Shown here: positions 689 to 3,597 of the stretch, one piece after another
How the letters are laid out: the number at the start of each line of letters is the position of its first letter
Numbering within the stretch: position 1 is the stretch's first letter
From: Blattabacterium cuenoti
GTDB taxonomy: Bacteria; Bacteroidota; Bacteroidia; Flavobacteriales; Blattabacteriaceae
Reading direction: 5' to 3'
DNA: 64,000 nucleotides
Assembly (NCBI RefSeq): GCF_014251755.1
Contig: NZ_CP059200.1
Location: 40,286-104,285, forward strand
Translations under genes and position numbers: made by a program
The notes under the pieces: model-generated
What the model was told of the DNA's origin: nothing
Databases searched by the model: none
What the model saw: only the letters and a program-made list of their open reading frames with translations

Positions 689-2155
689 TTGATTTTGTAC
701 AGAAAACTAGTAATACAAACAATTATATACTCTATAGGATTTGTATTTCCTAGAATTGTGAATTATGTTTTTTTAAAATTTTTTACTGTTTTTTTTAAAA
801 GAGAAGAATTCTCTCTTTATACAGATATGTATGCATTATCTTTCATCGTTATAGGATTTCTTTCTTTTGGATTAGAAAATACCTACTTTAGATTTTTATA
901 TAAAAAAAATTATAACAAAGAAATTGTTTTTTCAACGGGAGTTATAATACAATTGTTGATTAGTTCTTTTTTTTTGGTAATTTCTATAATTTTAATAAAG
1001 TATTTATCTTTCATTGCTGGATATCATCATCATTCAGAATATTTTTTCATGTTTTTTTTTATTATCTTTTTTGATACAATTTGTGTTCTTCCTATGGCTT
1101 GGCTTCGTGCAAATGATAAACCTGTACAATATTCTACAATAAGTATTGTAAATATATTAATACAATCATTTCTAATGATATATTTATTTTTTTATTCTGA
1201 TAATATTTTTTATGGTAAAAATACTTTCTTTTTTTTCATTTTTAGATGGATTAGTTCTTTTACAGATAAAATAGGTTATATATTTTTTTCGAATATGATC
1301 TCTTCTTTACTAAATTTATTTTTAGTACTTCCTATTCTTTTGAAAAAAGTAACTATAAAAAAATTTAATAAAAATCTGGCTATCAAAATGATAAATTATG
1401 GAATTCCTATTATGATAGGAACTATAGCTTTTTCTATTAATGAAAATTTAGATAAAATTTTGATTAAAAGATGGGTTTCAGATGAAATAAATGGATCTTA
1501 TTCAGCTTGTTATAAAATCGCCTCTTTCATGAGTTTGTATCTTAGAATTTTTAGATTAGGAATTGAACCTTTTTTTTTTAGAAAATCTAAAGATTCCGAT
1601 GCAATATATTTTTATGAAGAAATCATTTATATGTTTATTTTATTGGGATTAATTTTTTATGTGTTAATATGTGGAAATATTAACATATTTATGGAATTTT
1701 TAATTGATAAAAAATATCATGTAGCTATTCCCATTATTCCCATAATAATGATGGGAAATCTTTTTTTGGGAATTTATACGAATTTATCCATCTTTTATAA
1801 GATTATAGATAAACCTATTATTGGAACTTATATCTCATTAATTGGTGTATTGATTACTTTTTTATTTAATGCTATTTTTATTTTTATTTCTACTGATAAC
1901 AGTTTTATGATTCCGGCTTGGGGTACTTTTACGTCTTATGGATTTATGCTCATAGTTTTATATTTTTGGGGAAAAAAACAGTTTTTACAATTTTGTAATA
2001 AAAAAATTAAAAATATTATAATGCATTTTTTATTTGCACTTTTTATCGTATTTATGATAAAAAAAGAAATGGAATTAAGCTTTTTATTACAATTTTTATA
2101 TCTAATAATTATTTTTTTTTTAGAGAAAAAAAGATTGTCCAATTTAATCAAATAA
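689..2155 (+). CDS. Polysaccharide/lipid flippase of the MOP superfamily (Wzx-like)
   Basis: A 488-residue, almost entirely hydrophobic protein with about 12-14 predicted membrane segments and short Lys-rich loops. It resembles polysaccharide biosynthesis flippases of the MATE/Wzx/MurJ superfamily, which move lipid-linked sugars across the inner membrane. The segment NYGIPIMIGTIAFSINENLD near residues 233-252 is typical of the second half of such exporters. No ATG lies near the start of the conserved region, so TTG at 689 (or 695) is the probable start. It is followed by the remains of dut and by a sugar nucleotidyltransferase, an order familiar from free-living Flavobacteria. The substrate cannot be told from sequence. 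Residual envelope sugar metabolism is an inference from the neighbour at 2572. Confidence 0.75.
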   Translation: MILYRKLVIQTIIYSIGFVFPRIVNYVFLKFFTVFFKREEFSLYTDMYALSFIVIGFLSFGLENTYFRFLYKKNYNKEIVFSTGVIIQLLISSFFLVISIILIKYLSFIAGYHHHSEYFFMFFFIIFFDTICVLPMAWLRANDKPVQYSTISIVNILIQSFLMIYLFFYSDNIFYGKNTFFFFIFRWISSFTDKIGYIFFSNMISSLLNLFLVLPILLKKVTIKKFNKNLAIKMINYGIPIMIGTIAFSINENLDKILIKRWVSDEINGSYSACYKIASFMSLYLRIFRLGIEPFFFRKSKDSDAIYFYEEIIYMFILLGLIFYVLICGNINIFMEFLIDKKYHVAIPIIPIIMMGNLFLGIYTNLSIFYKIIDKPIIGTYISLIGVLITFLFNAIFIFISTDNSFMIPAWGTFTSYGFMLIVLYFWGKKQFLQFCNKKIKNIIMHFLFALFIVFMIKKEMELSFLLQFLYLIIIFFLEKKRLSNLIK

Positions 2156-2164
2156 AAATAAATT

Positions 2165-2545
2165 TTGCATAAAAAAATATATCGATCCACTTTAGTTTCC
2201 AGTATAAGAAGACCTGTTGAAATCAATTTTTTGAAAAGAAAATTGATTTCAACAGGTCTTCTTATTTATGAAAAACCTAGATGTTCTTTTTTTTTTAAAA
2301 AAAAAATGATAGAATCTATTTGTATCATTCATCTTACAAAAAAAAAAGAACATCCATTCTATAATGAAATTCAAATCATTGTAATAAACGTTTTTTCTGA
2401 AAAAAGAAATATAATCATTAAACCCAATGAAGAATTAGGAATATTAGATATCGTTACAGATGTTAAAATAAAATGGAAAAAATGTTCTATTTTAAATAAA
2501 AGTGTAAGAGGAAATAATAGTTTTGGAAGCACTGGAATATTATAA
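2165..2545 (+). pseudogene. dut: Degenerate dUTP diphosphatase (dUTPase) with catalytic motifs lost
   Basis: The frame is open for 126 codons, but the product cannot be an active dUTPase. The C-terminus RGNNSFGSTG is the family's motif V (usually RGxGGFGSTG), KRKLISTGLLI near residues 24-34 matches the strand before motif II, and IIIKPNEELGILDIV is an eroded motif IV. Motif I (GMDLRA) is absent, the RSG of motif II is gone, and the motif III aspartate region (normally IDADYRGEI) reads HPFYNEI, so the catalytic Asp is missing. The N-terminal part is replaced by the left arm of a perfect inverted repeat (2204-2265) whose right arm encodes the conserved KLISTGLLI stretch. The position between flippase and nucleotidyltransferase matches dut in free-living relatives. 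A non-catalytic protein could still be made. Confidence 0.8.
2204..2265. repeat. Perfect 27-bp inverted repeat with 8-nt loop
   Basis: Arms 2204-2230 and 2239-2265 are exact reverse complements, separated by eight bases (2231-2238). The right arm codes for a conserved dUTPase segment, so the left arm is probably the new copy, made by template switching. No U-run follows on either strand, so it does not look like a Rho-independent terminator, although as RNA it would be a very stable hairpin in the dut message. Confidence 0.95.
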
Positions 2546-2571: not shown

Positions 2572-3597
2572 ATGAAAATTATAATCCCCATGGCGGGAAA
2601 AGGATCACGTCTTTTTCCACATACTTTAAATACTCCTAAACCATTGATACATATTGCAGGAAAAACAATTTTAAGAAGACTGTTGGAAAATTTATCCAAA
2701 CTTATTCAAGTTTTTTCTATACAAGAGATAATTTTTATTTTAGGAAACTTTGGAAATCAAGTAGAAAAACAATTAATACGTCTATCTCATGATATGAAAA
2801 TTCATCCTATTATATATTATCAAGTGATCCCCCTTGGTACAGCAGATGCTTTGTTAAAGGCTAAAAAATCTTTAACAGGAGAACCAATTATTGTAGCTTT
2901 TTCTGATTCGTTATTTTATCATCATTTTTTTGATAAAGAAATTACTACTCATCAAATAGATAACATTATATGGACAAAAAAAGTTAAAAATCCTCATTTA
3001 TTTGGCGTAGTCAAATATTCTTCTTCAGGAATCATTACTCATTTTATAGAAAAACCAAATAGTTATGTATCAAATTTTGCTATTGTTGGACTTTATTATT
3101 TTAATAATAGTCTGCTTTTAAAAAAAGAATTACAATTTTTATTAGATCATAACATTAAGAATGAACAAGAATATCAGTTAACTTCGGCTTTAGAAAATAT
3201 GAGAAAAAAAGGAGAAAGATTCATTATCAAACAAGTAAAAGAATGGATGGATTTTGGTAATCAAAAAAAAACTATTTGTTCAAATTCCAAAATATTATCC
3301 ATTGAATCTAAAAATTCAGAATTAATTCATAAAAAAGTCATTATAAAAAATAGTTTGATTATAAAACCTTGTTCAATAGAAGAAAATACAAGTATTGAAA
3401 ACAGTATTATAGGTCCTTATGTTTCAATAGGAAAATTCACAAAACTAAAAAATAGTAATATAAAAAAATCTATAATTCAAAATTATACAATCATTCAACA
3501 CGCAAATTTAAGTCATTCAATAATAGGAAATCACTCTATTTATATAGGAGAAAAAACAAAAAAAATAAGTTTGAGTGATTATTCTGTTTTCAAATAA
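2572..3597 (+). CDS. Sugar-1-phosphate nucleotidyltransferase with C-terminal hexapeptide repeats
   Basis: This makes an activated sugar nucleotide from a sugar-1-phosphate and an NTP. The N-terminus MKIIIPMAGKGSRLFP is the nucleotide-binding signature of the NTP_transferase family (usual form GxGTRLxP), followed by PKPLIHIAGKTIL. ADALLKAK near residue 90 and the acidic pair in VAFSDSLF are the substrate and metal segments; the usual GD appears as SD. From about residue 255 the repeating I/L-rich pattern (IKNSLIIKPCSIEENT, IENSIIGPYVSIG) indicates a left-handed beta-helix, as in glucose-1-phosphate thymidylyltransferase-like and GlmU-like proteins. Length 341 aa suits a bifunctional-looking architecture. 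The specific sugar and base are not determinable. It sits 26 bases after the dut remnant and probably shares its transcript. Confidence 0.8.
   Translation: MKIIIPMAGKGSRLFPHTLNTPKPLIHIAGKTILRRLLENLSKLIQVFSIQEIIFILGNFGNQVEKQLIRLSHDMKIHPIIYYQVIPLGTADALLKAKKSLTGEPIIVAFSDSLFYHHFFDKEITTHQIDNIIWTKKVKNPHLFGVVKYSSSGIITHFIEKPNSYVSNFAIVGLYYFNNSLLLKKELQFLLDHNIKNEQEYQLTSALENMRKKGERFIIKQVKEWMDFGNQKKTICSNSKILSIESKNSELIHKKVIIKNSLIIKPCSIEENTSIENSIIGPYVSIGKFTKLKNSNIKKSIIQNYTIIQHANLSHSIIGNHSIYIGEKTKKISLSDYSVFK

Follow-up and report, generated by a model that had tools for sequence, protein, structure and literature searches.

Across the cockroach symbionts of the genus Blattabacterium, the active-site motifs of dUTPase appear to be divided between two genes. 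The gene at the native chromosomal dut locus has lost motifs I–IV and kept motif V, the gene of plasmid type has kept motifs I–IV and lost motif V, and this reciprocal loss between two dUTPase genes of one cell was observed in all 12 genomes having both. We consider it likely that the chromosomal gene encodes a non-catalytic subunit (beta) of a two-gene dUTPase, with the plasmid-type dut encoding the other subunit (alpha). Our more specific proposal, which we favor with less assurance, is an obligate alpha2-beta heterotrimer with one active site, with one subunit gene on the plasmid and the other on the chromosome in nearly the whole genus. The first-pass annotation had taken the chromosomal gene for a dut destroyed by an inverted duplication; it probably encodes a working partner subunit instead.

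The Chromosomal Copy at the Native dut Locus

The stretch of DNA analyzed here (the window) covers 64 kb (G000:C1:40286-104285) of a 625,920-bp genome, G000, and its features are listed in Table 1. Homologs of the open frame at 2165-2545 were found in 49 of 49 Blattabacterium genomes, with a frame of at least 120 codons in 45. As a single sequence, its protein had no Pfam match and scored 30 bits against a cut-off of 103 with the NCBIfam dut models (E = 3e-7 and 3e-4). A profile of the family aligned with canonical Duts over 118 columns (hhalign, 98.8% probability, E = 7e-17) and matched solved dUTPases in the PDB (7n56 at E = 7e-12); judged by these profile comparisons, the product is a divergent dUTPase homolog. 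AlphaFold2, given only three input sequences, modeled it at a mean pLDDT of 32.8, too low to inform on the fold. In free-living Flavobacteriales, the only dut has five motifs and is flanked in most cases by these flippase and nucleotidyltransferase genes, and thus the frame occupies the native dut locus. A PLSDB search with the DNA of this locus returned zero matches.

Table 1. Features of the window, in window positions.
Feature	Position	Strand	Remarks
Polysaccharide flippase gene, upstream neighbor	689..2155	+	Pfam Polysacc_synt; adjoins dut in outgroup loci too
Putative beta subunit gene, divergent dUTPase paralog at native dut locus	2165..2545	+	TTG start, TAA stop, 126 aa
Degenerated motif I position, STLVS, about residues 8-12	2186..2200	+	Alignment with 20 canonical Duts
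Left arm of perfect 27-bp inverted repeat, coding IRRPVEINF (residues 14-22)	2204..2230	+	Only in G000 and sister G016
Right arm of 27-bp inverted repeat, coding KLISTGLLI, conserved strand before motif II	2239..2265	+	Arm comparison and alignment
Second inverted repeat, left arm, 17 bp, 41-nt loop	2280..2296	+	Inverted-repeat scan of window
Degenerated motif II position, FFKKK	2291..2305	+	Motif table
Second inverted repeat, right arm	2338..2354	+	Inverted-repeat scan of window
Degenerated motif III region, without the catalytic Asp	2342..2371	+	Alignment and motif table
Degenerated motif IV position, NEELGI	2426..2443	+	Alignment and motif table
dUTPase motif V, RGNNSFGSTG, residues 115-124; sole active-site motif kept	2507..2536	+	R-x4-FGS[ST]G match
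Sugar nucleotidyltransferase gene, downstream neighbor	2572..3597	+	Pfam NTP_transferase E = 2.6e-30; adjoins dut in most outgroup loci

In the alignment with 20 canonical Duts, the protein retains none of the motif I Asp, the motif II RSG, the motif III Asp and the motif IV Gln; the first three losses had been recognized in the first-pass annotation, and the fourth is added here. Neither GMDLRA nor an intact motif III, which the inverted-duplication model would expect at this locus in other Blattabacterium, was present among the aligned copies, and the loss of motifs I–IV from the chromosomal gene is genus-wide. Overlooked in that annotation were the C-terminal motif V and its absence from the second dut. 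The pattern R-x4-FGS[ST]G was found at the C-terminus in 49 of 49 genomes, four frameshifted genes included, among chromosomal copies whose mean pairwise identity is 50% (minimum 32%). Its R, F, G, S and final G are invariant (45/45 aligned copies), T is replaced by S in two copies, and two of the inner glycines are substituted in most species. Because the codons of motif V vary synonymously, the constraint on it lies at the protein level, and the alternative that the 3' end is conserved for its DNA, for example as a promoter of the next gene, can be dismissed. Conserved residues of the core strands (T30, N75, I85 and W104) were also identified, along with new genus-fixed residues in the dead sites, where Lys has taken the place of the motif II Ser (40/45) and His that of the Asn preceding motif III (43/45).

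A Second dut Gene That Ends before Motif V

Contrary to the view that the dut of this genome was destroyed, a separate dUTPase gene with motifs I–IV exists in G000, integrated in the chromosome outside the window (G000:C1:138736-139131). Of the 12 genomes in which genes of this type were found, nine carry them on a 3–4 kb plasmid, and the other three (G000, G016 and G002) have them in the chromosome; the plasmid gene is already known and annotated as dut in published Blattabacterium work. Our outgroup set comprised 20 flavobacterial Duts, each with all five motifs. All 20 outgroup and all 12 plasmid-type proteins have the full set of catalytic residues in motifs I–IV (with a conservative R to K change in motif IV in two of the latter), and the motif I Asp is D in every member of both sets. 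Motif V is complete in all 20 outgroup Duts and all 49 chromosomal copies, and in none of the 12 plasmid-type Duts. In each of these 12 genomes, the plasmid-type Dut stops just past the conserved Trp that precedes motif V, and no frame up to 240 nt beyond the stop encodes the motif, which rules out access to it by recoding or frameshifting. The plasmid Dut of the Periplaneta americana symbiont lacks motif V as well. This absence appears not to have been remarked on in the open-access literature that we found.

The tree nested the plasmid-type clade within flavobacterial Duts, at modest support; the chromosomal copies formed a clade whose branches were too long for it to be placed. A phage origin of the plasmid dut was rejected, as the best phage match reached 61% identity versus 66% for a flavobacterial chromosomal dut. 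A scan of the genome contigs recovered two loci only. The G000 genome contains no dUTPase/DCD-family gene beyond the chromosomal gene and the plasmid-type dut. Since thymidylate synthase is present in G000 and no other protein of this family is, dUTP hydrolysis should matter to the cell; the lack of a third gene likewise leaves beta without another obvious partner.

The 37 genomes without a plasmid-type dut are single-contig assemblies. NrdB, also plasmid-borne, was found in the same 12 genomes as the plasmid-type dut and in no others of the 49. NrdA was found in 41 genomes, 30 of which belong to the 37. For the Diploptera symbiont (G048, one of the 37), the authors report that the plasmid was cut out of the contig (PMC7453276). 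Because NrdB is missing from the same genomes and plasmid removal has been reported, the absence of the plasmid dut more likely represents missing data produced by assembly practice; true plasmid loss is unlikely, given that NrdB is absent from the same genomes and 30 of them keep NrdA. Reciprocity was thus read directly in 12 genomes, the assemblies of the other 37 holding the chromosomal gene only, and as far as it is readable the reciprocal state appears fixed across the genus.

Several observations concern the genes that accompany the plasmid dut. The plasmid genes dut, DUF1599, VRR-NUC and nrdB are integrated in the G000 chromosome at about 138–142 kb of G000:C1, and dut and nrdB are also chromosomally integrated in G016 and G002. 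A conserved CxxC tail (S-G/E-CxSCES) closes plasmid NrdB at loci L114 (G000:C1:136500-142500), L081, L082 and L108, and the chromosomal NrdA of G000 (579 aa; locus L113) ends without one. NrdA is classically the subunit with the redox CxxC at its end; the present pattern is possibly a second tail-in-trans arrangement, or it may be normal for this NrdA/NrdB subclass. Two near-identical tandem copies of nrdA, about 2001 bp apart, were observed in G003 (L111, G003:C1:347500-352500) and G037 (L112, G037:C1:353200-358000), and a duplication with the same spacing in G028; they are either a real duplication or an assembly artifact.

The Hairpin Is Younger than the Motif Loss

The perfect 27-bp hairpin reported in the first-pass annotation within an open dUTPase-like frame is real: its arms are exact reverse complements separated by an 8-nt loop. 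It is the longest perfect inverted repeat of the window, and the second longest, of 17 nt, lies in the same frame. No inverted repeat of at least 14 nt arose in three Markov-simulated windows, and RNA transcribed from this frame has a folding energy of -100.8 kcal/mol (z = -9.3). The second repeat includes T10/A10 tracts, and the frameshifts of relatives sit at poly-A tracts. Alignment agrees that the right arm encodes the conserved strand before motif II. The first-pass annotation put the left arm exactly where motif I should be, but its counterpart in the alignment is the strand that follows this motif (ANLSESITLKP in canonical Duts, ANIKKSISINF in relatives).

Among the Blattabacterium copies, the hairpin is absent outside G000 and its sister species G016, which has a 23-bp version in the same open frame. 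Two arm sites co-vary between these genomes, reading ATAAGAAGACC/GGTCTTCTTAT against ATCAAAAGACC/GGTCTTTTGAT. Other relatives, G002 among them, have an imperfect inverted repeat with matching ends and a mismatched core, which represents the ancestral arms; in G000 and G016, the left-arm core changed so as to complement the right arm (KSISI to RPVEI), which yielded the 27-bp and 23-bp stems. The hairpin is probably a later, local product of template switching, which in the ancestor shared by G000 and G016 acted between two segments forming an imperfect inverted repeat and converted a few codons of a strand under weak constraint while leaving the frame unbroken. Templating from arm to arm, already proposed as the likely origin, is supported by the imperfect ancestral arms and the co-varying sites, and the matched differences at two sites support the further suggestion of ongoing correction between the arms, which continued after the two genomes split. 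The proposed destruction of dut by a recent inverted duplication did not survive these comparisons: motifs I–IV are lost genus-wide and the hairpin is confined to G000 and G016, so the loss of the catalytic motifs is older than the hairpin, and a close relative has the same open frame with arms that diverged in a co-varying way. Perfect inverted repeats of at least 13 nt number 5 in 19 kb of this gene and 2 in 108 kb of flanks, small numbers in both cases, and such an excess is expected of a weakly constrained region.

A Model for a Two-Gene dUTPase

According to a 2025 review, each active site of a trimeric dUTPase combines motif III of one subunit with motifs I, II and IV of a neighbor and motif V mostly of the third (PMC12524310). 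In the proposed enzyme, alpha would supply motifs I–IV, and the C-terminal arm of beta, motif V, would close over the bound dUTP. An alpha2-beta trimer would then have a single complete site, formed by motifs I, II and IV of one alpha, motif III of the other alpha and motif V of beta, and its remaining two sites would lack either motif III or motifs I, II and IV owing to beta. The arms of alpha itself would reach dead sites only, and motifs I–IV of beta would belong to dead sites only, so that the motifs missing from both genes would be exactly those of the two dead sites. Trimers of alpha3, beta3 or alpha-beta2 would have no complete site. If motifs V and III came from one subunit, as in a minority topology, no mixture would work, and the pattern therefore predicts the usual topology.

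Whereas reciprocal loss, locus orthology and protein-level constraint can be read in the genes, a physical alpha-beta complex, its stoichiometry and its catalysis are what we infer. Several considerations speak against the two-gene reading: truncated alpha alone might stay active enough, a trimer-competent fold is putative for beta, the gene is frameshifted in four genomes, and the reciprocity was read directly in 12 genomes.

Alternative Explanations

The chromosomal copy could be a decaying pseudogene, drifting after the plasmid Dut took over its function, with the hairpin as one more scar. The loss of catalytic motifs I–IV would fit such decay, as would the higher density of perfect inverted repeats than in the flanks (0.26 versus 0.02 per kb) and a dN/dS of 0.29–0.63 between the closest pairs, compared with about 0.13–0.25 for the neighboring gene in the same pairs. 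Four copies, in G001, G020, G032 and G045, are moreover frameshifted in mid-gene near poly-A or poly-T tracts. Rescue by slippage is a known idea in endosymbionts, and a full-length subunit in these four genomes would need either such rescue or a sequencing error. However, 45 of the 49 frames are open, whereas a crude neutral simulation kept the frame intact in 0.4% of its runs once 80 substitutions had accumulated; dN/dS stays below 1; and motif V, precisely what the plasmid Dut is without, is invariant as protein in 49/49, even 3' of the four frameshifts. Ten close pairs showed 161/112/206 differences at codon positions 1/2/3. The chromosomal copy is under protein-level constraint, the pseudogene reading is strongly disfavored, and the first-pass suggestion that a non-catalytic protein is still made probably holds.

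Two further explanations grant the chromosomal protein a function. It could be a non-catalytic regulator or moonlighting protein of dUTPase fold, unrelated to the catalysis of alpha, with truncated alpha acting alone as a weak dUTPase. The new genus-fixed residues in its dead sites would suit such a role, and bovine immunodeficiency virus offers an example of an inactive dUTPase-related protein that matters (PMC4261571); but conservation is strongest in motif V, which is known for closing the dUTPase site, and the loss of motif V from alpha in 12/12 genomes would be left unexplained. We regard this explanation as unlikely. Alternatively, beta, or its C-terminal half only, might act in trans as a lid that attaches to the outer face of an alpha trimer and stays out of the trimer itself. 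In the four frameshifted genes, the part left intact is the last 65–69 codons with motif V, as an outside lid would predict, yet the 45 full-length frames and the conserved T30, N75, I85 and W104 suggest that the jelly-roll is needed, and we give this arrangement very little credence.

Relation to Known dUTPases and Significance

The chromosomal protein resembles the homotrimeric all-beta dUTPase (Dut, PF00692 / TIGR00576) in homology along most of the chain, in its native locus and in motif V. The homotrimeric enzyme has five motifs in one gene and three equal sites, whereas in Blattabacterium the motifs are split over two genes and the pair could have at most one complete site per trimer. 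The monomeric herpesvirus dUTPase (Epstein-Barr virus type) likewise involved duplication, loss of redundant motifs and one complete site (PMC12524310), but its copies are fused in one chain rather than encoded by separate genes on plasmid and chromosome. Similarly, the three-domain pseudo-heterotrimeric dUTPase of Drosophila virilis places non-identical dUTPase domains in a trimer-like enzyme; unlike the Blattabacterium pair, it has five motifs per repeat and three sites in one chain. The dUTPase-related protein of bovine immunodeficiency virus (74 aa) is an inactive relative that is nevertheless required; it is viral, shortened and without a partner dUTPase missing the complementary motif, whereas beta has such a partner.

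We found no description of a two-gene dUTPase in open-access papers. If the proposal is true, this would be, to our knowledge, the first trimeric dUTPase in nature to assemble its one active site from two gene products. It would also clearly exemplify complementary degeneration acting on individual active-site motifs. A further implication would be that dut calls made from either gene alone misread both, as one seems complete without its lid and the other seems a relic. Importantly, once the plasmid copy had lost motif V, both genes, and hence the plasmid, would be indispensable, which would offer a reason for the persistence of a 3–4 kb plasmid in a highly reduced genome and for the retention of a broken-looking dut.
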